A stretch of 37,195 nucleotides of DNA. Source: an uncultured Prevotellaceae bacterium. Lineage in GTDB: Bacteria > Bacteroidota > Bacteroidia > Bacteroidales > Bacteroidaceae. Location of the stretch: positions 1 through 37,195 of the forward strand of contig CACYKA010000030.1 of the NCBI GenBank assembly GCA_902774795.1. The letters run 5' to 3'. This document shows positions 25,687 to 37,195 of this stretch, piece after piece; the stretch's first letter is position 1; the number at the start of each line of letters is the position of its first letter. The translations under genes and the position numbers were made by a program. The notes beneath the pieces are model-generated. The model made no database searches and was not told where the DNA came from. It was given only the letters and a program-made list of their open reading frames with translations.

Positions 25687-25872
25687 AATGACTCAAAATA
25701 TGCTAGGGATTCAAGTCGCAGATAAGCTGATGCGTTTAAATTGGTGAGAGATTAATTCAGAAATAATAATAAAAATGGTGCTTTTGAGACGTGAAGAAGT
25801 AAATAAAGTGCTTTTTAGTAGGGGGAATTGTTAATTAACGTGATTTTTTGCATTTTGTTCCGAAAAAAAGAG

Positions 25873-25880
25873 TATCTTTG
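25873..25880 (+). promoter_or_regulatory. Putative -7 element for the ATPase/TOPRIM genes
   Basis: TATCTTTG (TAnnTTTG) lies 28 bp before the ATPase ATG. TTTG boxes occur 15 and 22 bp upstream (25854 and 25847) but not at the ideal 19 bp. It would give a short leader for the defence genes. Confidence 0.5.
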
Positions 25881-25907
25881 CAAAGTATTGTCTACATAAC
25901 TATAGAT

Positions 25908-26990
25908 ATGGAAGGATTTAAGAATATAGAAATCAAGAATTTTAGGGGTATTGACCATCTGAAGATAGATAATTTTTCGCGTGTTAATGTGTTCTTGGGA
26001 CAAAACAGTTCTGGTAAAAGTACAATATTGGAAGCAATCCTGCTTCTTCTTGGTATGTCCAGCCCTGATCTTCCACAAACCCTCAATAAAATAAGGTCTC
26101 GCAATAATTTTAGTGTGGTTGGGGATGTACGTTATATGTTTAACAATCTGATACTTTCTCGTTCTCCAGAGATTAGTGCAGAACTTGCAGATAACGTAAA
26201 ACGTTATCTCAAACTAAATCTGTCGTATGTTTTTAACGAGAATGAGGATATAGCCCGAGAAAATGCCCCCCTTCCAATTTCCGACAACACTGCCTATATC
26301 AATACGTTGGAGATGCTCTTCGATATAGTTGAAAAGGAAGTGAAGAATAGTTATCGTAGTTCCTTAACCTTTAATCAGGGAGGGGCAATTACAGGAAGGA
26401 AACTGGCTGATGGCTACATTGAAAAGGTTTATGTTAGCCTAATAACTGCAGACTTGCTGGCAGGAAGTCTTGTAAACGACCTGTCTGAACTTTTCAAGCG
26501 CAAGCAAAAGGACCTGATTGTGGAGCGTCTGGCTAATTTTGATAAAAATATAAACACAATTGATATTTTAAATAATGATGTGTATATCGGTTTTGAAGGT
26601 ATCAATGAGATGTTGCCACTTGGCATGTCTGGCGATGGTCTTCGCAGATTCCTTAACATAGTGGCCTGTTCTGCCAATCCGATGACGAACATTATTCTGA
26701 TAGACGAAATCGACAATGGGCTGCACTATTCTGCCTACAAGAAATTATGGGAGGCCATATTTGCCTTAGCAACTTCCACGAATAAACAGGTTTTTGTGAC
26801 GACTCATAGCAAGGAAACGCTTTATAAGCTCAATGAAATGCTGGAAGAAAATACCGACTATCAGAAAGAATTGAGGTTATATACCATTGAGAGGACTTTA
26901 AAGAAGGGGATTCAGGCATATAAATATACTTATGAGGGGCTGTCAGGGGCTTGTGAGAATGACATTGAGATTAGAAGTACAGTCCTATGA
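25908..26990 (+). CDS. OLD/ABC-type ATPase (AAA_15/AAA_21), defence-associated
   Basis: An SMC/ABC-like ATPase of the kind used in phage-defence pairs. I start at 25908 because MEGFKNIEIKNFRGIDHLKI is the canonical first strand of this family; the upstream in-frame ATG lies before the promoter box. The 360-aa protein has Walker A GQNSSGKST (near 32-40), an ABC-like signature GMSGDGLRR (about residue 240), Walker B IILIDEIDNGLH and a switch histidine in VTTHSKE. Like OLD-family ATPases it lacks its own TOPRIM domain, which is instead supplied by the next gene, overlapping by 4 bp. The layout recalls the AriA half of PARIS, but the family is not certain. Confidence 0.82.
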   Translation: MEGFKNIEIKNFRGIDHLKIDNFSRVNVFLGQNSSGKSTILEAILLLLGMSSPDLPQTLNKIRSRNNFSVVGDVRYMFNNLILSRSPEISAELADNVKRYLKLNLSYVFNENEDIARENAPLPISDNTAYINTLEMLFDIVEKEVKNSYRSSLTFNQGGAITGRKLADGYIEKVYVSLITADLLAGSLVNDLSELFKRKQKDLIVERLANFDKNINTIDILNNDVYIGFEGINEMLPLGMSGDGLRRFLNIVACSANPMTNIILIDEIDNGLHYSAYKKLWEAIFALATSTNKQVFVTTHSKETLYKLNEMLEENTDYQKELRLYTIERTLKKGIQAYKYTYEGLSGACENDIEIRSTVL

Positions 26991-27616
26991 AAAGATTCTT
27001 GATTATTGTAGAGGGTGAAGCCGATAAGAAGTTCTTATGGGACTACTTCCATCATTTGTTTGATGAACAGGCACCGAAAGACAGCATCATACATTCTGGC
27101 AAAGACAGTGATACTGGTGGTTATACCAAGTTGAAGTCCGAGGAGGCATTGCAAGCGATGCGCAAAAACACCAACCAAGGCGGTGTAAACCTTGTTATAT
27201 TCGATGCAGACGAGAACCCAGAGGGTCGTCGCAAAGAATTGCTTGCCATCAAAGAAGAGTTTGGCGTGGAATTCGAGTTGTTTCTTTTGCCCAACAACAA
27301 AGATGCTGGTGAGTTAGAAGATATGCTGGAGCAAATCATAAACCCTAACAATCAGCCCGTGATGGATTGTTGGCAGACTTACGAATGTGAACTTGAAAAT
27401 GTGAGAATTCCGACCAAAACACCTCCAACGCTGACTATTCCTGCCAAAAAGACCAAGATATATGCCTATCTTGAAACTTTGTTAGGAAAGTCGAGAAGTC
27501 AGAAGAAACTGATTAAGGATGCCAACCGCAATTACGAGAACACCCAGCACTGGAATCTGGATGCAGAGTATCTGGAGCCGTTGAAAGAGTTTTTGGAAAA
27601 CAAGATTTCGGATTAA
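26987..27616 (+). CDS. TOPRIM-like DUF3226 family protein, partner of the ATPase
   Basis: A 209-aa candidate nuclease or effector. The TOPRIM fold is suggested by a first strand ending in an acidic residue ([14 protein letters not shown]9), the D73-A-D75 metal motif in LVIFDADEN, and the [14 protein letters not shown] helix typical of DUF3226. Overlap with the ATPase (ATGA) points to a tight two-gene unit resembling OLD/TOPRIM or PARIS-type systems, though the PARIS effector belongs to a different family (DUF4435). The last 25 codons are duplicated, with mostly synonymous changes, immediately before the methyltransferase gene downstream of dinD. Confidence 0.78.
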
Positions 27617-27620
27617 GCGT

Positions 27621-28451
27621 ATGAAAAAGGGTGAGATATTAGCATTATTTCAAGAATATGAGCAGGCCGCTTGCGAAGTAAACCAAGTAGAATGTTGGAG
27701 TGCAAGAGATTTGCAAAAGTTACTTGGCTATAGCCTTTGGCAGAACTTCACGAAAGTTATTGAAAAGGCTAAAATGGCATGTGAGAATGTTGGCCAAAAT
27801 ATAGTTGACCATTTTATTGACGTCAATAAAAAGGTCGAGTTAGGTAGTGGCGCTTTTCGTGAAGTTGATGACATCATGTTGACCCGATACGCATGTTATC
27901 TTGTGGCGCAGAATGGTGACCCACGAAAGCCTCAGATTGCATTTGCACAGACCTACTTTGCCGTGCAGACCCGTCGGGCTGAACTCATAGAACAGCGTTT
28001 GTTAGAGGTAGAGCGAGTAAAGGCTCGTGCCAAACTGCAAGAAACAGAGAAGAAACTGTCAGGCGTGTTGTACGAACGTGGTGTCAATGACAAAAGCTTT
28101 GCTGTCATCCGTTCTAAAGGCGATCAGGCCCTCTTCCGTCTCAGTACCAATGTGATGAAAAGTAAGATGGGTGTTCCTGCTTCTCGTCCTTTGGCTGATT
28201 TCCTGCCAACCATCAGCATCAAAGCCAAGGACTTTGCTGCCGAGATGACCAGCGTTAATGTGCAGGCGAAAGACTTGAAAGGTGAAACACAAATCATCCG
28301 TGAGCATGTTGACAACAACGCAGCTGTTCGCCAAATGCTCGTCCAACGTGGCATCGTCCCTGAAGACCTGCCACCTGCTGAGGATGTTAAGAAGGTGGAA
28401 CGCAGATTAGCAAGTGAAAGCAAAAAGGCGTTAGAAAACAAAAAGAAATGA
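27621..28451 (+). CDS. dinD: DNA-damage-inducible protein D (DinD)
   Basis: A 276-aa DinD-family protein. E. coli DinD is an SOS-induced protein that antagonises RecA filaments. The N-terminal Bro-N-like part reads [28 protein letters not shown], followed by [33 protein letters not shown]. The central part is coiled, and DinD-typical [28 protein letters not shown] precedes a basic tail (KKALENKKK). In Bacteroidetes, dinD often travels inside type I restriction loci, which fits the hsdM-like remnant upstream. It begins 5 bp after the TOPRIM gene and is flanked on both sides by copies of that gene's 3' end. Codon use is less AT-rich than in the genes that follow. Confidence 0.88.
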
Positions 28452-28452
28452 T

Positions 28453-28551
28453 ATGGTCCAGAATCGTAATTACGAGAACACCCAGCATTGGAATCTGGAT
28501 GCAGAGTATCTAGAGCCGTTGAAGGGATTTTTGAATGAACATTTATTATAA
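28453..28551 (+). pseudogene. Orphan 3' end of a second TOPRIM (DUF3226) gene
   Basis: A 32-codon frame reads [20 protein letters not shown] and on to LNEHLL. From NRNYENTQ to the region of EPLK it matches the end of the TOPRIM protein (27524-27597) at about 90% nucleotide identity. Nearly all differences are synonymous (AAC/AAT, CGC/CGT, CAC/CAT, CTG/CTA). The stop overlaps the methyltransferase start as TAATG, so the lost parent gene was probably translationally coupled to the methyltransferase. The initial ATG is probably incidental. Confidence 0.75.
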
Positions 28552-29813
28552 TGCGCTATATTAATTTCGATAACATACCAGAGAATCGGGAATGGGCATT
28601 TGAAAGTGTTCGTTCTACGGAGCAATGGACTCATGGATACCATCGCTATCCTGCTAAATTCCTGCCCGATGTTGTAAGAAAGATAATAGAAGATTATGCA
28701 CGAGGCAGCAATTTGATAGCAGATTTATTTGCCGGCTGTGGGACAACATTAGTTGAAGCCAAAGTTCATGGAATATCTTCTGTGGGTACGGATATTAATC
28801 CTGTTGCTCAACTAATAACTAAGGTAAAAACTACGGCACTATCTCCCATTGCTCTTCAACAAGCATATGATGCGCTGGTAAAGTTGTTTGATGAATATAG
28901 TGAGTGTGATTATGCTGGCATACAAAAACATGATAGAATAGACTATTGGTTTACCCAACCGCAGAAAGCAAAGATAGCCTTTTTATATGATAAGATTTTC
29001 CATTTGGATGTTAATGATGACATAAAGGATTTCTTCTATGTTTGTATTTCTCACATCCTAAAAAATTGTTCATGGTGGTTGCAGACTAGTACAAAACCAC
29101 AAAAAGACAAGGAGAAGAAACCGGAAGACCCGTTTGAGGAATTCTGTCGTCATTGCAAGAAAATGATAGGTTGGAACGAGAAATTCTACAATGAACTGAA
29201 CGAGAAAGGGCGTTTGGATACTCCTTGTGAAATCCATTTGGAAGATGCTCGTCATACATCAATTCAGGCAGGAAGTATAAATGCAATTATTACCTCTCCA
29301 CCTTATGTGACATCTTATGAATATGCAGATATCCATCAGTTGACAGCATATTGGATGGAGTATATGTCAGATATTCAAGAGTTCCGCAAAAAATTCATAG
29401 GCTCTTCCTATTCTGGCAATACATCTCTGTCGGTTTCAGAGAGCAAGCAGGCCCAAAAGATTGTCAATGCTTTGGCAGAAAAGAGTATGCATATAGCACG
29501 TGATGTTGCACAGTATTTTAACGACATGCAAGAAGTTGCCAAGGAAATGTCAAGAGTGCTTGCTCCCAATGGTCGTGCCTGTATTGTTATAGGCAATACT
29601 AAGATAAAGGAAGTACAAATAAAGTCTGCAGAAGTGTTCTTTGAGTTCCTGCGAAATGCAGGATTACGGAAGGTAAATGTTATAAAACGAAGTATTCCTC
29701 ACAAGTTGATGCCTACTTTGAGAGACAAGAATACTGGGAAATTTACGAAACTGGATAATCCTAATTGTAAGAAGGTTTATCCAAATGAGTATATCATTAT
29801 AATGAAAAAATAA
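28551..29813 (+). CDS. DNA methyltransferase (SPPY-type amino-methyltransferase)
   Basis: A 420-aa SAM-dependent methyltransferase acting on the exocyclic amino group of cytosine or adenine. The order of motifs is a motif X-like HGYHRYPAKFLP (28-39), then motif I DLFAGCGTTLVEA (58-70) for SAM binding, then the catalytic motif IV TSPPYVTSYEY (T248-SPPY252), and near the C-terminus RACIVIGNTK. A lysine/tryptophan-rich insertion between motifs I and IV (about 150-230) may be the target-recognition part. SPPY is commoner in N4-cytosine enzymes, but N6-adenine is possible. It starts inside the stop of the TOPRIM remnant and ends 3 bp before the GHKL ATPase gene, so it probably protects host DNA from the downstream nuclease. 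Confidence 0.9.
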   Translation: MRYINFDNIPENREWAFESVRSTEQWTHGYHRYPAKFLPDVVRKIIEDYARGSNLIADLFAGCGTTLVEAKVHGISSVGTDINPVAQLITKVKTTALSPIALQQAYDALVKLFDEYSECDYAGIQKHDRIDYWFTQPQKAKIAFLYDKIFHLDVNDDIKDFFYVCISHILKNCSWWLQTSTKPQKDKEKKPEDPFEEFCRHCKKMIGWNEKFYNELNEKGRLDTPCEIHLEDARHTSIQAGSINAIITSPPYVTSYEYADIHQLTAYWMEYMSDIQEFRKKFIGSSYSGNTSLSVSESKQAQKIVNALAEKSMHIARDVAQYFNDMQEVAKEMSRVLAPNGRACIVIGNTKIKEVQIKSAEVFFEFLRNAGLRKVNVIKRSIPHKLMPTLRDKNTGKFTKLDNPNCKKVYPNEYIIIMKK

Positions 29814-29816
29814 GAT

Positions 29817-32036
29817 ATGGCTATTATAGAACAAAGCAGTATGCCATTCAGACCTTATGCGAGGTTAATGAATGTGATTGGCGATCAACTGATAACTGAT
29901 AAAAAAGTTGCAGTGATTGAAATCATTAAAAATAGTTACGATGCTGATGCAAGTATCGTAAAGGTAAGGTTTTGTAATATGTCTAATGTAGGATTTAATA
30001 GCCTGCCAAAGGAAGAACAAGCTTACATTGAGATTGAAGACAATGGCTGCGGAATGTCGTTAGATGTGATTAAAAATGTCTGGCTTCGTCCTGCGACACC
30101 AAATAAGTTTGATAAGAAAAAAAGAAAGAACCTAACAACAGAGAAAGGAAGAATAATTCAAGGTGAGAAAGGAATAGGAAGATTCGCAATCCACAAATTA
30201 GGCGAAAAGATAGAACTCTATACAAAAGCAAAGGGGGAAAATGAGGTCAAGTTAGAAATGAACTTTGTTGACTTTAATCCTGATGATGCCAATTTGTTTA
30301 ATCAGCCTTCAGATTACAAGTTGTTAGATGAGGTGACCAACAATTGGTATGTGCAGGATCCATCCGAAAGAGTGATGAATGAATCAGGCACTATAATTCG
30401 TATCTATAATCTTAGAGAGCAATGGTCTTTAAATGACTATAAAGAGTTATATCAGAATATACAACGCATGATGCCTCCCGTTGATGATAATGCACGGTTA
30501 TTAGGTGTTGATTTTGTCCAGGACTTCTCCATTGAAATGTATAAAGAGGGCAAACTTTATGTAGATGAAGATGTTAGAACTTTTGCAGATGTCATCGAAC
30601 GTGCTCAATTCTCAATGATAGGATCTGTTGATAAGAATGGAAATGCCCATTTCCAATATAAGTCATTATCTCCAAGACGCATTTTTAGCGATGATGTTAA
30701 TTTGTTGGATGAAAACGCGTTATCCATAAGAAATTATTCTTTATATGGAACGAAGTGGTTTAAAGATAATGACAGGAAACCACAATGTGGCCCATTCCGT
30801 TTTACATTTTATGCTTTCGACTTGAAGAATAAGGATTTAACAATATTAGACAAAGACTTGGAAAAATTCATCAAAGATAACTTCGTCTTTGTTATGAGGG
30901 ATGGGATACGTGTTTATCCATACGGCGAGAAAGGTATAGACTGGTTGGATTTGGATAAATTGAGGTCAACTTATCGGGCAGGCCAGTTTATTAGTTACAA
31001 TGATTTAACAGGATTCGTTTATATATCTCAAGAAAACAACCCATTGTTGAGAGATGCAACAAACAGGCAGGGACTTGTTAATGACAAGGGCTGTTATAAT
31101 GATTTCAAGTCATTAGTAACGGCGGTGACTGAAATTTTTAATTACGAAATCAAGATAGACAAGAATAAAAAAGCGATACAAAGAAGGATGCCAATTAAGC
31201 AATCAAATGAAGCCTTACAAGCTTCTCTGATAAGATTGCAAAAGTCTTTAGAGAAATCTGAGAATCTGGAAACTCTTGAATTGTCAAATAAGTTCTTTGA
31301 TGCATATAAGAAACACATAGACATTATAAAGGATAGAATGGAAACCGTTGAGGATTTGGCAGGCTTAGGTATGGCAGTCGAAAAATCCTCTCACGATTCT
31401 ATTCGTATACTTTCATTAATGACTCAAAATGTGAAGTCATTCAAGAAGAAAATGCTTAGTCATAATTATCAAGAGCAGGATTTGACAGAGTTATTTGATG
31501 ACTTGGAAGAGAACTTAAGCATTGTTCATGAAGACATGCAAATGATTCAGCCTTTATTTAAGATTCAGCGTCAGAGTATTAAGGATGTTTCTATTAAGGA
31601 GTGTATTGTTAAAGTCGTTAGATATTTCAGAAATGATATAGATGGGAAGATTCTGACGAATATAAATAAGATAGGAGAAGACCTAATCATTAAAACTAAT
31701 GCAGGTCTCATTTTACAGGTATTGATAAATCTGATTGATAATTCAATATACTGGCTTGGCAAGTCTGGTATTCCCGATAAGAAAATCCATTTTGCAATAT
31801 CACCAACTGACAGAACGCTTATTATTGGGGATAATGGAAATGGAATACGTGAAGATATTGTTCCTTTGGTATTCAACGAATTCTTTTCAATGAAGTCAAA
31901 TGGCAGAGGTTTGGGATTATATATTGTGAGAGAATTACTATTACGCATAAATGCCCAAATAGAGGTGATAGAGAATCCAACAGGTAAGATACTACCTGGG
32001 GCAAATTTCATCATCAAATTTGACGTGGAGGAATAA
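29817..32036 (+). CDS. Protein with two GHKL ATPase modules: MORC/HSP90-like N-terminus, histidine-kinase-like C-terminus
   Basis: A 739-aa soluble protein with no membrane segments. The N-terminal module has the GHKL boxes E35..N39..D42 (VIEIIKNSYDADA), D75-NGCGM80 and GEKGIGRFA (116-124), as in HSP90, MutL and MORC clamps. A long middle part resembles a transducer domain, then a helical region has a candidate H-box around EKSSHDSIRI (about residue 525). A second GHKL module follows, with N-box LINLIDNSIYWL (about 635), G1 IGDNGNGI, F-box FNEFFSMK and G2 GRGLGLYIV. The tail is thus a cytoplasmic histidine kinase, and the next gene, 2 bp away, is receiver-like. It lies between a methyltransferase and an McrB gene, so a regulatory or DNA-clamp role in restriction is inferred. 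Codon use is strongly AT-rich. Confidence 0.85.
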   Translation: MAIIEQSSMPFRPYARLMNVIGDQLITDKKVAVIEIIKNSYDADASIVKVRFCNMSNVGFNSLPKEEQAYIEIEDNGCGMSLDVIKNVWLRPATPNKFDKKKRKNLTTEKGRIIQGEKGIGRFAIHKLGEKIELYTKAKGENEVKLEMNFVDFNPDDANLFNQPSDYKLLDEVTNNWYVQDPSERVMNESGTIIRIYNLREQWSLNDYKELYQNIQRMMPPVDDNARLLGVDFVQDFSIEMYKEGKLYVDEDVRTFADVIERAQFSMIGSVDKNGNAHFQYKSLSPRRIFSDDVNLLDENALSIRNYSLYGTKWFKDNDRKPQCGPFRFTFYAFDLKNKDLTILDKDLEKFIKDNFVFVMRDGIRVYPYGEKGIDWLDLDKLRSTYRAGQFISYNDLTGFVYISQENNPLLRDATNRQGLVNDKGCYNDFKSLVTAVTEIFNYEIKIDKNKKAIQRRMPIKQSNEALQASLIRLQKSLEKSENLETLELSNKFFDAYKKHIDIIKDRMETVEDLAGLGMAVEKSSHDSIRILSLMTQNVKSFKKKMLSHNYQEQDLTELFDDLEENLSIVHEDMQMIQPLFKIQRQSIKDVSIKECIVKVVRYFRNDIDGKILTNINKIGEDLIIKTNAGLILQVLINLIDNSIYWLGKSGIPDKKIHFAISPTDRTLIIGDNGNGIREDIVPLVFNEFFSMKSNGRGLGLYIVRELLLRINAQIEVIENPTGKILPGANFIIKFDVEE

Positions 32037-32038
32037 AT

Positions 32039-33280
32039 GTGAATGGAGTTGTTATTTTTGCTGATAATAGAATTTTCACAAAGGGGAAAGAAAATGAACT
32101 TTTCAAGTTATTCCTCAATGATTCCGATTTTTCTGTTTTGCCTATAGATAGTCTTGAATGTTTAGAGTCAACGATTAAGTCGGCATCTACGTTTAGAGCA
32201 TGTATTATTGACTGGGATTTCGAGAACAATGACATGAAGGATGAAGACTTTGATGGAGTTGAACTTCCACAGAGAACACCAATGTCCATACTCACAGAAC
32301 TCACATTATATACCCTTGTATATGTTTATTCTGAAAAAGAGATTCCTGAGACAGAAAAGAAAGAGTTGCAGAGCAAATACGGAAAAAAAATCCGATTTAA
32401 AACAAAACAAGGAAATGTCGATTCAGAATATAATAATATTATAAATGATATAAGGATATTTGAGGCAAATAATAGTCACATGAATATTCCTTTTATGTGG
32501 AGCCAATCTATCAACCAATCTGCACAGAAGATTTTTAGTGAGTTGGAAGATGCAAATTCTTATTGGATTAAGGAAATCAGAGATACAGCTATTAAAGACG
32601 GAGGGGATGCCACGTCAGAAGTTATAGATGTCTTTAATAACCTTCTGAATGAAGATTTAATTCAAAATAAAGCTCTGAGAAATCTTTTAGACTCTTTTGA
32701 ATGTAATGAAAATGAGCATAAGGAAGAAAATACTGCAAAACTATATAGGAGGATTTATTACTCAAATATAGTCGACACAAGCCCTATTATGACTGGAGAT
32801 ATTTTCAAACTTGATGAGGATCATTATGGTATTCTTATCACTCCTGAATGTGAAATAGCTGATAAGCAAAAAGAAAAGGAGAAAGACTACTATGATTTTT
32901 TAGTGATAAGCAAATCTGCTTCTAAGAAATATCAGGAAGAAAAACAAAAGAAATTTTCCAAGGACGCAAAAAATGCAAAAGAGATATTTAACAATGGTGT
33001 GATAAGCCGCCATGTCTTGATTTCTTTCCCTTTTGAGGATACCTTTTACAATCAAATCGGTTTGATAGAATTTAATACGGCTTTTAGAACTTATGCCAAA
33101 ATAAATGATGACAACACTTCTATTGCTGAATGTAGAACAAAGTACAAATTGAATGCGCCATATATTCACCAGTTAAGGCAGCGTTTCGTTTCATATTTCG
33201 GGAAATATGGTGTACCGGCAATTCCTGATAGTTTAAGAGTGTATAATCTCAAAAAGCAATCAGATGGAGTTTGTGGGTAA
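32039..33280 (+). CDS. Receiver-like protein with a C-terminal domain of unknown family
   Basis: A 413-aa protein starting at a GTG (32039); an overlapping ATG two bases earlier hits an immediate stop. Residues 1 to about 130 look like a degenerate response-regulator receiver: strand VVIFADN with D9, then a strand ending in IIDWDF, where D58 is in the phosphoacceptor position, and a later LYTLVYVYSEK strand. There is no DNA-binding output domain. The C-terminal half contains GDIFKLDEDHYGILITPECEIADK (about 254-277), with C271 in a T-P-E-C-E context, and a highly charged Lys/Glu stretch. It is tightly linked to the kinase-like GHKL gene, so the two probably form a signalling pair. The role of the C-terminal part is unknown to me. 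Confidence 0.65.
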   Translation: MNGVVIFADNRIFTKGKENELFKLFLNDSDFSVLPIDSLECLESTIKSASTFRACIIDWDFENNDMKDEDFDGVELPQRTPMSILTELTLYTLVYVYSEKEIPETEKKELQSKYGKKIRFKTKQGNVDSEYNNIINDIRIFEANNSHMNIPFMWSQSINQSAQKIFSELEDANSYWIKEIRDTAIKDGGDATSEVIDVFNNLLNEDLIQNKALRNLLDSFECNENEHKEENTAKLYRRIYYSNIVDTSPIMTGDIFKLDEDHYGILITPECEIADKQKEKEKDYYDFLVISKSASKKYQEEKQKKFSKDAKNAKEIFNNGVISRHVLISFPFEDTFYNQIGLIEFNTAFRTYAKINDDNTSIAECRTKYKLNAPYIHQLRQRFVSYFGKYGVPAIPDSLRVYNLKKQSDGVCG

Positions 33281-33325
33281 CTGTATATACTTGATGGGTA
33301 ACTCGGTACAATTAGGGGGTAAGTC
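33275..33325 (+). repeat. Three ~21-bp degenerate repeats before mcrB
   Basis: GGGTAACTG, GGGTAACTCGG and GGGTAAGTCGG occur at 33275, 33296 and 33317. The first overlaps the receiver gene's stop codon. The 71-bp gap they fill is the only real gap within the methyltransferase-to-nuclease block, so they may be an operator or an mRNA element controlling the restriction genes. Confidence 0.6.
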
Positions 33326-33351
33326 GGAATATTAATTTTGAAGTAAAGAAT

Positions 33352-34962
33352 ATGGAATATAATCTTAAGGAACTCGTTGCTTCAATGTGGGAGCATAGAA
33401 AGAATAAAGATTTTGAGCGTAAAAGCTTGATGACCTCATATCGTGGATTATCTGTGAAAGCTAGTATAGGTATGACAGGGGTTATATCAAGGATACCTTG
33501 GATTTCATATTGTGCAGAAGGCCAAGAAACTCAAAAAGGTATATATCCCGTTTTGCTATTCTATGGGACACCGGAATTCTTAGAGAAAAACAAAAATAAA
33601 ACCATAATTAAGAAGATAGTCTTAGCATATGGGGTAAGTGCAACTAAAATACCAGATGTTTTGTGGGGAGCAGAAGTTAAATACAAGAAGACAATAGGAG
33701 ATTCATTTGTAGATTGGGGGTATGAAACATCTGATAACGGAATTAAAAAATATAATTCTTCTTATGTCTATAAAACATATGATTGGACAGATAACATAAA
33801 TTTTGATAATATCCAGAAAGATGTTGACCAATTAATTGATATCTATAAAAAGATAATATCAGGCCCAAATTTGAATTCAATGGAGAACAATGATAATATG
33901 AAAAAGGTTTCAGGACAATTAACAGATAATAATAAGACTGTTATCAACTTCTTGAAAATAAATCCCTCTCAGATTATTTATTATGGAGCTCCTGGAACGG
34001 GAAAGTCATATACAATTAGGAAGAAAGAAAAAGCAGGACTCTGCTGCATTCGTACAACATTTCATCCTGATTGCGATTACGCAACTTTCGTTGGCTGCTA
34101 TAAGCCACATCTTAATCAAGAGCTAAATAAGTTGACATACGAGTTCGTAGAGCAGTCATTTCTGTCGACGTATATAAAAGCATGGCAGAATCCTCAACAG
34201 GAAATAGCGTTGGTAATAGAAGAAATAAATCGAGGTAATTGTGCTCAGATATTTGGTGATTTATTTCAGCTTTTGGACCGTGATGAAGATGGATGGAGTA
34301 CTTATCCAATAAAGGCTGATACAGATATCTGCAATTTTCTATCATCTTTGTCTATAATAGGCTACTCAGAAACAATGAAAGCACGTTATGGCAGTGATAA
34401 AGAAGGATATATTTATTTGGCTCTTCCACCAAATATGAGCCTATTGGCCACAATGAACACCAGTGATCAAAGCCTGTTCCCCATTGACTCGGCCTTCAAG
34501 CGCCGTTGGGAGTGGAAGTACATCAAGATAAAGGAAGGTCGAGACGAGAATGGCAATAAGCTTGACTGGAAAGTTAATGTTAAGATGGACGAATCGGGCA
34601 CATTGTTGTCTTGGTGGGATTTCATCAAGAAAATCAACGAGATTATTGCCTCTATGACATCGAGTGCTGATAAGCAGTTGGGCTACTTCTTCTGCTGTGC
34701 CAAAGATGGTGTGATAGACGAAGAGACATTCGTTTCGAAGGTGATATTCTATCTGTGGAATGATGTGTTCAAGGACTATGGCTTTGAAGATGTTTCGCTG
34801 TTCCGCTACACCACAAAAGATGAGGATGGAAAGGATGCGGAAAAGGATCTGACTTTCCCAGACTTCTATGATGAAGAAGGTGAGAAGGTGAATACTGAGC
34901 GACTGACCGACTTTGTAAAGAAAGTGATGTCGTGGAAGAAGACAAATGCTGAACAAGACTGA
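33352..34962 (+). CDS. mcrB: McrB-type AAA+ GTPase with MrcB_N (DUF3578)-like DNA-recognition domain
   Basis: The motor subunit of a type IV-like (McrBC) restriction complex. The N-terminal ~175 residues resemble the MrcB_N/DUF3578 module (SYRGLSVKASIGMTGVISRIPWISY, KGIYPVLLFYG), which in relatives recognises modified or specific DNA. The AAA+ domain has Walker A GAPGTGKSY (212-220), Walker B LVIEEINRGN (287-296), the McrB GTPase motif MNTSD (368-372), and a following AFKRRWEW. Length is 536 aa. It overlaps the nuclease gene by one base (TGATG). Base use changes abruptly near 34440: AT-rich before, C/G-ending codons after, as if the 3' part came from another allele. Confidence 0.92.
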   Translation: MEYNLKELVASMWEHRKNKDFERKSLMTSYRGLSVKASIGMTGVISRIPWISYCAEGQETQKGIYPVLLFYGTPEFLEKNKNKTIIKKIVLAYGVSATKIPDVLWGAEVKYKKTIGDSFVDWGYETSDNGIKKYNSSYVYKTYDWTDNINFDNIQKDVDQLIDIYKKIISGPNLNSMENNDNMKKVSGQLTDNNKTVINFLKINPSQIIYYGAPGTGKSYTIRKKEKAGLCCIRTTFHPDCDYATFVGCYKPHLNQELNKLTYEFVEQSFLSTYIKAWQNPQQEIALVIEEINRGNCAQIFGDLFQLLDRDEDGWSTYPIKADTDICNFLSSLSIIGYSETMKARYGSDKEGYIYLALPPNMSLLATMNTSDQSLFPIDSAFKRRWEWKYIKIKEGRDENGNKLDWKVNVKMDESGTLLSWWDFIKKINEIIASMTSSADKQLGYFFCCAKDGVIDEETFVSKVIFYLWNDVFKDYGFEDVSLFRYTTKDEDGKDAEKDLTFPDFYDEEGEKVNTERLTDFVKKVMSWKKTNAEQD

Positions 34963-37195
34963 TGTATATCCTATTTGAAGAACACCAATATGAAAGCCGC
35001 CTTGTTGAAAAGGTCCTAAAGGACATCTACGTTCTGCAAGATGTCAACAAGAAGGTGAGCGTGCAGTATGTAGGATATTTCTATAATCCGCATCTGCATG
35101 ATTGTGTGTTCATTCTGCCGAAGGTGTTGCTGACGGAGCAGGAAACGTTAGTCGGCATGGAATTGCCAACAGGTGAACAGGTAAGTCCCGAGCAAGTACT
35201 GACACCAGAGGAACAGAAGAAACTGAGTAAAGAATATCGAAAGTTTATTTACGAATTCTCTGTATGGATATATCGTGCATTGAGTGTTTTCTATAAGGCT
35301 AATCCTGACAGTAAGGCCATCCTTTACAAACATCTGCCGCAGGCTGGCAGGGGCAGACGCTATCGGGCCAACACTTACCTGGATATTGTGTTGTCGCTAA
35401 TCTCTTTTAATCAAGAGAATAGGGACTTTGTTTTGTTTACCATCAAGAACTTGCATAGGGGTAACAACAAAATCAACTGGACGCGAACTATCAGCCACTC
35501 TCAGGCTTTTGTACAAGATGACGACGTGGTCTATCTGAATCCTGTCAACAAGAAGCGAATTGTCAACTATGAGGAAGAGCTGTTCGTTATCTTCTATAGC
35601 ATACTGAACTATCTGAATAATGAATATGGTTTTCATACGCCCATCAATATTCAGTATGAATTGATAACTGGTAAGCAGTTCTTACAGTATTTACATGGTA
35701 TGGGCAAGGCAAGGCTCATGCAGATCAAATATAAATACTTCTCTGACAAAGCCTTGCAACTATGGGATTTGTGCTATGCCTTCTTTGAAAACTCGTACCG
35801 TATCGCTATCAATACCCATGCCCAGGAGTATATCCTGGCCAAGAGTTTCAACGTGGTATTTGAAGCCATGATTGACGAACTGATAGGCACACCACACAAT
35901 AGAATACCTAAAGGACTGGCAGATCAAGACGATGGCAAGCGGGTTGACCACATGTACGCAGACCTGGCCTTGACATCGGCTGATGCCCAGAAGAACAGAG
36001 AGGTATATTATATAGGGGATAGTAAGTACTATAAGAGTGGACATCCGCTGACTTCAGAATCTATCTATAAACAATACACTTATGCAAGAAATGTAATTCA
36101 GTGGAATGTCAATCTGTTTGCTGCGGATGATTCACGATTTGACAAGAAAGAAAAGGAAGCACGCAATGAAGACAAAAAGCATTTCGACAATATTCATTTG
36201 CAAGACAATTGTCTGACGGAAGGATATGATGTGATTCCAAACTTTTTTATCAGTGCTTTTGTCTATAAAGACCATCGGTATAACGATGGAGAGAACAACA
36301 TACGTAAGCATACCAAAAACGGGGAACATTGCACAAGGGTTTCTTATCAGTTTCCTGACAGACTTTTTGACAGAGACACACTTTTCCTTTCTCAATATGA
36401 CGTCAACTTCCTCTATATTCTCTTCTTGTATGGCCGTAATAAATCCAATGAGAAAGCGCAATGGAAGCAGCATGTGCGGAAGATTTTCCGTGACGAAATA
36501 CGTGCTGTGATAGAAAAAGAATTCAAAATCTATGCTATGCGTGCCCGATTGGGGGTAGATGGAGCACTATATCTGCAACAACATTTCTATGAGTTAAATG
36601 GTCGGGTGTTCCAACCATATGGAGAAAATAGGGAAATGTATTTTGCATACGCTCGCCCTCAGAAAAATCTGGAAGGTACACAGCAGCAATATGATGAGTT
36701 GTCGAAGTACTTTGTTATCACAGAATGTGGCATGGGAAAAGATCCTCAAGAGGAATTGAAGTCTAGGGTTGATGCAGAAATGGGTAGAACCGTCGTTACG
36801 CCTCAATGGCTGACCCTGCACTATCTGGAAAGAAATGCTGATGGAGGAATTATGGTGGGCTATTATAGGTCTGAGGAACACTTGAAGTGGATTATGGGCA
36901 ATAACGATAAAGGGAGCCTAGTGTATAATGCGCGTCTGAAACTAAAAGGTGAAGAACCAAGAGATGGCGCTCACTCTGCTGACTTTTATAAAAAGAAAAA
37001 TGTTCAATTCGTTATTCTTTATACTGATGGTGTGGAAGAAACAGGAGAGTATCATGTGTTCCATGTAAAGGACACAGCCAGCAAGGTAACAGAGGAGCGT
37101 ATGAAAGGTACGTGGTATCCATTCGAAGTAAAAGGCCCTCATTTCTTCTTCCGCTTCGACGAGGAGATAACCTTGGGGAAATTAAATATAGTAGG
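34962..37195 (+). CDS. McrC/LlaJI-like PD-(D/E)XK restriction nuclease subunit (cut by window edge)
   Basis: Open from the ATG at 34962 to the right edge (744 complete codons, no stop), so it is much larger than E. coli McrC (about 350 aa). The first ~250 residues match the style of McrC/LlaJI partners that contact McrB. The nuclease core has E301 (FNVVFEAMIDELIG), D329 (KRVDHMYADL) and D353-S-K355 (YYIGDSKYYK), a good PD-(D/E)XK set. A long C-terminal region beyond about residue 400 is of unknown fold and has no McrC counterpart that I know. Coupling to the GTPase gene identifies it as the cleaving subunit. The family name (McrC versus LlaJI) is my best guess from motif layout. Confidence 0.8.
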   Translation, partial: MYILFEEHQYESRLVEKVLKDIYVLQDVNKKVSVQYVGYFYNPHLHDCVFILPKVLLTEQETLVGMELPTGEQVSPEQVLTPEEQKKLSKEYRKFIYEFSVWIYRALSVFYKANPDSKAILYKHLPQAGRGRRYRANTYLDIVLSLISFNQENRDFVLFTIKNLHRGNNKINWTRTISHSQAFVQDDDVVYLNPVNKKRIVNYEEELFVIFYSILNYLNNEYGFHTPINIQYELITGKQFLQYLHGMGKARLMQIKYKYFSDKALQLWDLCYAFFENSYRIAINTHAQEYILAKSFNVVFEAMIDELIGTPHNRIPKGLADQDDGKRVDHMYADLALTSADAQKNREVYYIGDSKYYKSGHPLTSESIYKQYTYARNVIQWNVNLFAADDSRFDKKEKEARNEDKKHFDNIHLQDNCLTEGYDVIPNFFISAFVYKDHRYNDGENNIRKHTKNGEHCTRVSYQFPDRLFDRDTLFLSQYDVNFLYILFLYGRNKSNEKAQWKQHVRKIFRDEIRAVIEKEFKIYAMRARLGVDGALYLQQHFYELNGRVFQPYGENREMYFAYARPQKNLEGTQQQYDELSKYFVITECGMGKDPQEELKSRVDAEMGRTVVTPQWLTLHYLERNADGGIMVGYYRSEEHLKWIMGNNDKGSLVYNARLKLKGEEPRDGAHSADFYKKKNVQFVILYTDGVEETGEYHVFHVKDTASKVTEERMKGTWYPFEVKGPHFFFRFDEEITLGKLNIV

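Follow-up and report, generated by a model that had tools for sequence, protein, structure and literature searches.

A widespread methyltransferase, histidine kinase and receiver trio, probably acting in defence, and its McrBC neighbour

Do genes that lie almost end to end on one strand serve a single system? The question is raised by five genes at the end of a 37,195-nucleotide stretch of DNA from an uncultured Prevotellaceae bacterium (contig CACYKA010000030.1 of assembly GCA_902774795.1), called the window below. They code for a DNA methyltransferase (MTase), a histidine kinase (HK) with two GHKL ATPase domains, a protein resembling response regulators (RR), and the McrB and McrC subunits of an McrBC nuclease. 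A sequence-only reading of the window had joined all five in one restriction system. The answer favored here is that the first three genes form a core of their own, and that the window McrBC is most likely a LlaJI-like neighbour in the same island, separate from this trio. The window is an entire contig (C30 of genome G000, which is 79% complete), so the McrC gene is truncated where it runs past the contig end. The places and spacings first given for these genes agree with the list of open reading frames (ORFs): gaps of 3, 2 and 71 bp, then a 1-bp overlap, with the last gene incomplete.

28551..29813, + strand: DNA methyltransferase of the N6_N4 type with a TSPPY motif, an exchangeable module (Pfam, alignment, swaps between HK clades)
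29817..32036, + strand: HK with an N-terminal HSP90/MutL-type GHKL ATPase, a middle region, the H-box His526 and a C-terminal HATPase_c (Pfam, alignment)
32039..33280, + strand: response-regulator-like protein, receiver (D9, D58, K123) plus output domain (conservation)
33352..34962, + strand: McrB-like GTPase, LlaJI R1-like, probably of a separate neighbouring system (family scans, C5-cytosine methyltransferases in its subfamily)
34962..37195, + strand: McrC-like nuclease, LlaJI R2-like, truncated at the contig end (motif conservation)

The identities proposed for the five proteins are borne out. Pfam recognizes N6_N4_Mtase in the MTase (1.9e-19), both HATPase_c_3 (3.9e-18) and HATPase_c (8.2e-19) within the single HK protein, and MrcB_N (7.5e-6) and AAA_5 (5.7e-6) in McrB. 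The same scan gave no match for McrC and one chance-level match for the RR (E = 0.14). The receiver is recognized by the conservation of D9, D58 and K123 in 84, 85 and 84 of 85 aligned relatives, and the PD-(D/E)XK nuclease by the McrC motif D329 plus GDSK (352-355), invariant in all five aligned relatives.

The co-occurrence of the five families was studied in 89 loci: the window, eight loci collected earlier and 80 loci fetched from species genomes with an HK alignment. The latter are the best 80 of 110 confirmed relatives, selected by HK similarity, and the counts describe these and the earlier loci; flanks extend to at most 10 kb and many contigs are shorter. Our hidden Markov models label an HK in 88 loci, an RR in 86, an MTase in 83, and McrB plus McrC of the window family in two. 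The MTase lies directly upstream and the RR directly downstream of the HK in 77 of the 88 HK loci, and at each of the two junctions the genes overlap by a median of 4 bp; the RR adjoins the HK in 85. Since this order recurs so often, it cannot be a chance arrangement. Two second copies (L011 and L014, of L024 and L057) and a locus with a truncated RR (L013) are inside these counts and were removed before the residue and distance analyses, leaving 74 loci. The eleven exceptions to the order are three distant plasmid relatives (L008-L010, with a C5-cytosine methyltransferase, or C5-MTase, beside L010), three contig ends (L015, L021, L090), two Flavobacterium loci in which a second GHKL gene of ~820 aa separates MTase from HK (L022, L023), two loci where the MTase overlaps the mechanically called HK start (L067, L074) and one with no labelled MTase (L094).

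According to their record titles, many of which denote metagenome bins, the loci belong to Bacteroidota, Bacillota-type and Pseudomonadota-type bacteria, Actinomycetes, Planctomycetota, Verrucomicrobia, Nitrospirales, Holophagales, Omnitrophota, Cloacimonadota and Patescibacteria. Six further HK loci, outside the 89, lie on viral contigs (L117-L122); five have the three genes in order, and L117 starts at the HK, with no labelled RR behind it. L122 and L068, equal in length, are probably one contig. The spread is patchy: the RR was found in 4 of 296 genomes of the phylum, the window's own included. Direct RR searches of plasmids and viral contigs found none, though HK searches there found loci with an RR. 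The HK of L015, a locus of Lachnospiraceae by title, is 88% identical to the window HK. The other close relatives of the latter belong to Bacteroidales; L015 may reflect mis-binning or transfer. The part of the sequence-only reading that treated methyltransferase, double-GHKL kinase and receiver as one unit therefore stands, by gene order and by the phosphotransfer residues described below. The trio is a real and widespread three-gene core, partly foreseen in print; it appears to travel as a unit across many bacteria and is probably a defence against foreign DNA.

Across the 74 loci, the phosphorelay and ATPase residues examined are nearly invariant, which indicates that those for phosphotransfer are retained. 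In the HK, E35, N39, D42, D75, G77, G79, K118, G119 and G121 are found in all 74 sequences, as are H526 of the H-box, N638, D641, N642, D672, G674, G676, G698 and G700. E117 is kept in 71 (D in the others), R697 in 72 (K in the others), and position 527 is always D or E. The MTase has TSPPY at residues 248-252 in the window, and [T/S]SPPY is kept in all 72 rows with letters at that position. SPPY is usual for N4-cytosine MTases, and we presume that the window enzyme is probably one of them. In the RR, position 10 is D in 65, N in 15 (including the window) and E in five of the 85 relatives. The output domain has invariant G253 and C271 (83/83), D254 in 80 of 83, D272 in 77 of 83 (E in four, including the window) and R389 in 78 of 81 (K in three, including the window). 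PF19192 matches three of 75 scanned RRs (74 of the 79 listed plus the window; best 1.6e-5), the window RR not among them. PF00072 matches three RRs from farther away at 1e-3 to 2.6e-6, which falls short of its cut-off. The RRs of the distant plasmids and of a further locus discussed below (L102) align with those of the trio at an hhalign probability of 98 over 310 columns, including the C-D pair and the RxGxP end; as the alignment covers most of their length, both types share this output domain. The idea that the RR is itself a PD-(D/E)XK nuclease was abandoned, as no conserved D...(D/E)xK could be seen by eye among the listed conserved columns. A MazF-like barrel was considered as a possible fold of its GD...P.CD region. 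Comparison by sequence with solved structures gave one chance match (E = 0.53).

The MTase has a history different from that of the HK and RR. HK and RR distances correlate at 0.918, MTase and HK distances at 0.475 and MTase and RR distances at 0.439, values that none of 999 permutations reached. At 41% single linkage the HKs form clades of 65, 15 (with the window) and two sequences. When these clades are mapped as labels on FastTree phylogenies (short rows removed; 67 of the 74 loci for the MTase, 72 for the RR), the label changes once on the HK tree, once on the RR tree and eight times on the MTase tree; 500 shuffles of the latter gave a mean of 10.4 changes and a minimum of seven. Six separate MTase clades are mixed (support at least 0.993). 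Hardly any trace of the HK clade survives in the MTase tree: HK and RR are passed on together, and MTases are exchanged. MTases up to 90% alike accompany HK pairs ~31% alike, and four of the ten MTase groups span both large HK clades. Among 52 MTase pairs at least 70% alike, the HKs are at least 60% alike in 26, 40-60% in three and below 40% in 23. Conversely, among 182 HK pairs at least 60% alike, the RRs are at least 30% alike in 174 and show no match in eight; the MTases are at least 60% alike in 97, 45-60% in 43, below 45% in 20, and were not compared in 22. The window and L058, for instance, share 84% in the MTase, 33% in the HK and 23% in the RR. The mixed clade of L020 with L084, L087 and L088 contains three records that are not bins by title (L020, L084, L087); as they stand on both sides of the clade, binning error is no general cause.

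Nucleotide comparisons locate some of the exchanges. In three of seven locus pairs, homology stops +1, -1 and +9 bp from the MTase stop codon. In three of the seven it resumes at the end of the RR (L016/L077, 77 bp; L017/L081, 309 bp; L017/L072, 1720 bp). L017 and L072 share Type III Mod and Res genes on either side of the trio, together with the MTase, and most of HK-RR is not shared, as if the HK-RR pair had been exchanged in place. Outside the trio, two of three plasmid relatives of the MTase that were viewed adjoin MvaI/BcnI endonucleases; a search for an MvaI_BcnI nuclease in the window's own genome found no match, but a control search gave none anywhere either.

No fourth gene common to the trio loci was found. 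In 75 loci the contig leaves room behind the RR and shows a further ORF there. Seventeen of these have one nearby on the same strand with at least 120 aa, of mixed kinds: there is no constant nuclease partner. No nuclease is common to the trio loci, so there is no recognizable restriction endonuclease as in classical Type II restriction-modification (R-M). The nearest neighbours of at least 150 aa (117 of 118, one low-complexity ORF of L069 omitted) include N6_N4_Mtase (11), ResIII (6), C5-MTase (4), RE_endonuc (2) and Eco57I (2) among the best 25 of 141 families. With PADLOC-DB 2.0.0 at 1e-20, immediate neighbours match 154 families, R-M families occurring among the best 25 inspected, versus 23 families, none an R-M model, in 59 genes six positions out; the two sets differ in size, and the far one comes from long contigs. 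The same database has no model that covers the HK and RR: at 0.01 the window HK matches only REase_II (1.6e-5) and MzaB (0.0032) and the RR nothing. Eight loci (L007, L041, L046, L052, L068, L089, L090, L093) carry, upstream of their trio, a second MTase of about 295-401 aa, which in seven cases lies on the opposite strand; six of these second MTases are 55-77% identical to that of L007.

How the trio might act is suggested by its parts. In the reading that we favor, with a probability a little below one half (about 0.47), MTase, HK and RR would form a self-contained, R-M-like defence unit built on a phosphorelay, with specificity provided by swappable MTases and McrBC as a LlaJI-like neighbour. 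The MTase would mark host DNA. The N-terminal GHKL ATPase of the HK, working as an ATP-driven clamp, would inspect DNA, and the MTase might present the sites to it. Where the mark is missing, the HK would autophosphorylate at His526 and the phosphate would pass to Asp58 of the RR, which might then attack foreign DNA or stop the cell through a novel C-terminal domain, the invariant Cys and the near-invariant Asp/Glu and Arg/Lys being its candidate effector residues. We infer clamp sensing, phosphotransfer, effector action and MTase-given specificity from sequence. Since HK-RR pairs that differ deeply have repeatedly received MTases by swapping, the engine itself probably lacks a fixed sequence specificity, and the MTase would supply one: in a two-enzyme R-M system an MTase of the wrong specificity should be lethal, yet these engines changed their MTases. 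More doubtful, and offered tentatively, is the idea that this represents a new discrimination of self from non-self, a phosphorelay restriction in which the MTase gives specificity, a GHKL clamp-kinase reads the mark and a phosphorylated receiver with a Cys-Asp domain is the effector; cassette swaps under a kept MTase, and the reverse, would then perhaps escape phage inhibitors without losing host protection.

Several observations weigh against the favored reading. The RR has no recognized nuclease motif and no recognized output-domain fold. If all MTase groups mark the same site, their swapping tells nothing about specificity. R-M labels are carried by at most ~25 of the 117 immediate neighbours, as counted in the best 25 of the 141 families. 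In four of the seven locus pairs, nucleotide homology runs ~400 bp into the HK. Compared with L065, a control that belongs to the other HK clade and has no closely related MTase (0.38 to the window), L016/L077 and L025/L036 are ~0.10 more alike at HK residues 61-135, so the boundary may lie inside the HK, and some co-transfer of its ATPase domain with the MTase may have occurred in these pairs. The same comparison finds the HK ATPase region equally alike in two L017 pairs, where such co-transfer is unsupported.

Alternatively, the HK-RR pair could be a regulator: on sensing damaged or foreign DNA it would switch the MTase and an adjacent R-M system, by transcription or protein contact, the neighbour supplying the nuclease. 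Such work is typical of two-component systems, and a regulator role was speculated upon for a related pair in the available part of PMC8011034. The surroundings lend this explanation some weight: the trio stands between Type III Mod (E = 8.5e-176 to 6.1e-198) and Res genes in L017, L019 and L072, C5-MTase genes adjoin it in L016 and L018, McrBC follows it in the window and an HK-RR pair of another type accompanies McrBC in L102. The HK-RR cassettes nested between Mod and Res belong to two different clades. Nevertheless, the neighbour varies between loci, the RRs match no helix-turn-helix or other known DNA-binding family at E 0.01, and in 58 of the 75 loci the RR is followed by no nearby ORF of 120 aa or more on the same strand. 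This is an upper figure, because a real gene can be masked by small mechanical ORFs, which happens in L018. A regulatory pair seems less likely than the favored reading.

The five genes as one gated system, in which the MTase protects, HK-RR gates and McrBC cuts, the trio having replaced the C5-MTase of a LlaJI-like system, are considerably less probable. This explanation has the layout of the window in its favor: McrB starts 71 bp behind the RR with no C5-MTase between them, unlike the 13 other labelled loci of this McrBC subfamily (L018, L101, L102, L105, L114-L116, L123-L128; McrC matches in G453, a 3.8-kb contig, and G411, weak, were left out), all of which have a C5-MTase upstream, adjoining McrB in ten and with one gene between in three. 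This arrangement seems to be the LlaJI plan. The window's own genome shows a single C5-MTase fragment, elsewhere (on contig C53). An HK-RR pair accompanies two of the 13 loci: in L018 the trio is followed ~370 bp on by C5-MTase, another gene, McrB and McrC, and in L102, an independent locus (G517, same class), two C5-MTases, another gene, McrB, McrC, HK and RR stand in a row, the last two of another type. L102 leaves a link between kinase-receiver pairs and McrBC possible, and the available part of a census (PMC11090510) also remarks on MTase and two-component genes in McrBC operons. Against a five-gene system, McrB and McrC of this family lie near the trio in only two of the 89 loci, directly adjacent only in the window, so that the homologues are usually apart from McrBC and the joint system was rejected as the default; relatives of McrC are rare in themselves (6 of 395 genomes of the phylum, the window's own included, at E 1e-10). 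L016, whose HK is 89% identical and where 8.7 kb beyond the RR are covered, has no McrBC, and the McrBC of L018 has its own C5-MTase. What lies beyond McrC is visible only through contig C18 of the same genome, at the end of which the last 32 McrC residues recur; a Vsr gene then follows and likely adjoins the window McrC:

L104 15883-16482 (G000 contig C18): Vsr endonuclease (TIGR00632, 128.6 bits, cut-off 97.85)

Vsr being a companion of 5-methylcytosine systems, its probable place behind McrC also speaks against a system built on the trio's MTase. The earlier premise that McrBC normally acts alone was too strong: the window subfamily is associated with MTases, as are LlaJI (PMC1459862) and part of the McrBC family (PMC11090510) in the available parts of those accounts. 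McrC residues ~580-744 form a C-terminal extension that the L018 McrC also has and three shorter relatives lack; it may serve in target recognition. Another McrB-like AAA protein (PDC-M26A), not of the window family, stands behind the trio in L058, and two genes beside the LlaJI-like system of L101 (4970-9506) look by eye like a candidate short Argonaute-type operon.

The least probable explanation, that the trio is an epigenetic module in which the kinase-receiver pair modulates methylation for gene regulation, agrees with the lack of a recognized nuclease and with the fact that MTases can be orphan regulators, but its patchy spread, its place between Type III Mod and Res and the frequent module exchange look like defence genes.

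If the phosphorelay defence reading is true, bacteria would decide on restriction through histidine-aspartate signalling, joining two fields, and MTase exchange would show that the engine can be parted from its specificity, much as Type I and Type III systems allow, the engine here being unrelated to theirs. Thanks to the swap pattern, this separability is directly testable. The McrBC neighbour is probably an accident of the island, and a defence operon should not be defined from a single locus.

In 2-kb steps across the window, guanine-cytosine (GC) content is 0.43-0.52 up to 24 kb and 0.33-0.42 beyond, a drop that resembles an acquired island. GC at third codon positions is 0.30-0.35 in the trio genes, 0.38 in McrB, 0.46 in McrC and 0.49-0.62 in six backbone genes, and gives no clear separation of trio from McrBC. 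Promoter-like sites number 36 (39 in shuffles) and terminator-like sites 9 (6.9). Three further genes precede the trio:

25848..26990, + strand: AAA ATPase, AbiLi/PDC-M38A-like, likely start ATG at 25908
26987..27616, + strand: DUF3226 TOPRIM-like partner of the AAA ATPase (family scans)
27621..28451, + strand: DinD-like (PDC-S13) protein (family scans)

The AbiLi-like ATPase and DUF3226 pair (25848-27616) is also found upstream of the trio in L058 (7039-8732), the HK-RR pairs of the two loci being different, and L018 also carries a DinD-like gene upstream of its trio.

Among known systems, none concerned with the MTase-HK-RR trio or MTase exchange appeared in the titles and abstract starts searched, subscription papers and preprints being largely outside that search. 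BREX relatives are covered in PMC12839542, and HATPase and REC are among the domains of predicted, unvalidated defence systems in PMC13092281, as far as the available parts of both go. Like the trio, paraMORC R-M operons (PMC2292703) and VcSduA (PMC12137116), a GHKL Shedu whose ATPase is needed for defence, combine a GHKL ATPase with MTases or nucleases; the available parts of these accounts mention no H-box, second ATPase or receiver, all of which the trio has. According to the accessible portion of the McrBC census (PMC11090510), some McrBC operons have MTases and the NxD branch frequently has two-component genes, so that MTase, McrBC and two-component genes meet in one operon as in the window, whereas in the window McrB the motif is NTSD, by eye of the NxxD form, which would place it in the other branch. 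LlaJI, described in the part of PMC1459862 at hand as a Type II R-M system with McrB/McrC-like subunits and an associated MTase, resembles the window in its McrB-like GTPase with a PD-(D/E)XK partner in similar orientation, a pair feature that the window has; relatives of the window McrBC carry C5-MTases as well. In contrast to LlaJI, the window McrBC stands behind the trio without an adjacent C5-MTase, and the likeness is one of description. The closest published relative of the HK-RR pair appears to be HEF_HK/Response_reg_2, linked to R-M (91.6% linkage in 644 regions; PMC8011034, 2021). As that source, in its available part, describes them, these HKs also combine HATPase_c_3, a His region and HATPase_c, a plan that the window HK follows with its His and then an acidic residue, and they have an adjacent RR-like gene, with MTases and Vsr nearby. 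Differences remain: PF19191 has no match in the window HK nor in six others (L016, L065, L058, L102, L010, L009), the window RR likewise lacks PF19192, and the published pairs mostly accompany C5-MTases, whereas here an N6_N4-type MTase is the regular first gene. MTase swapping and Type III nesting, both seen here, were not met in the available part of that account; what is new here is that HK and RR segregate together while their MTases swap.

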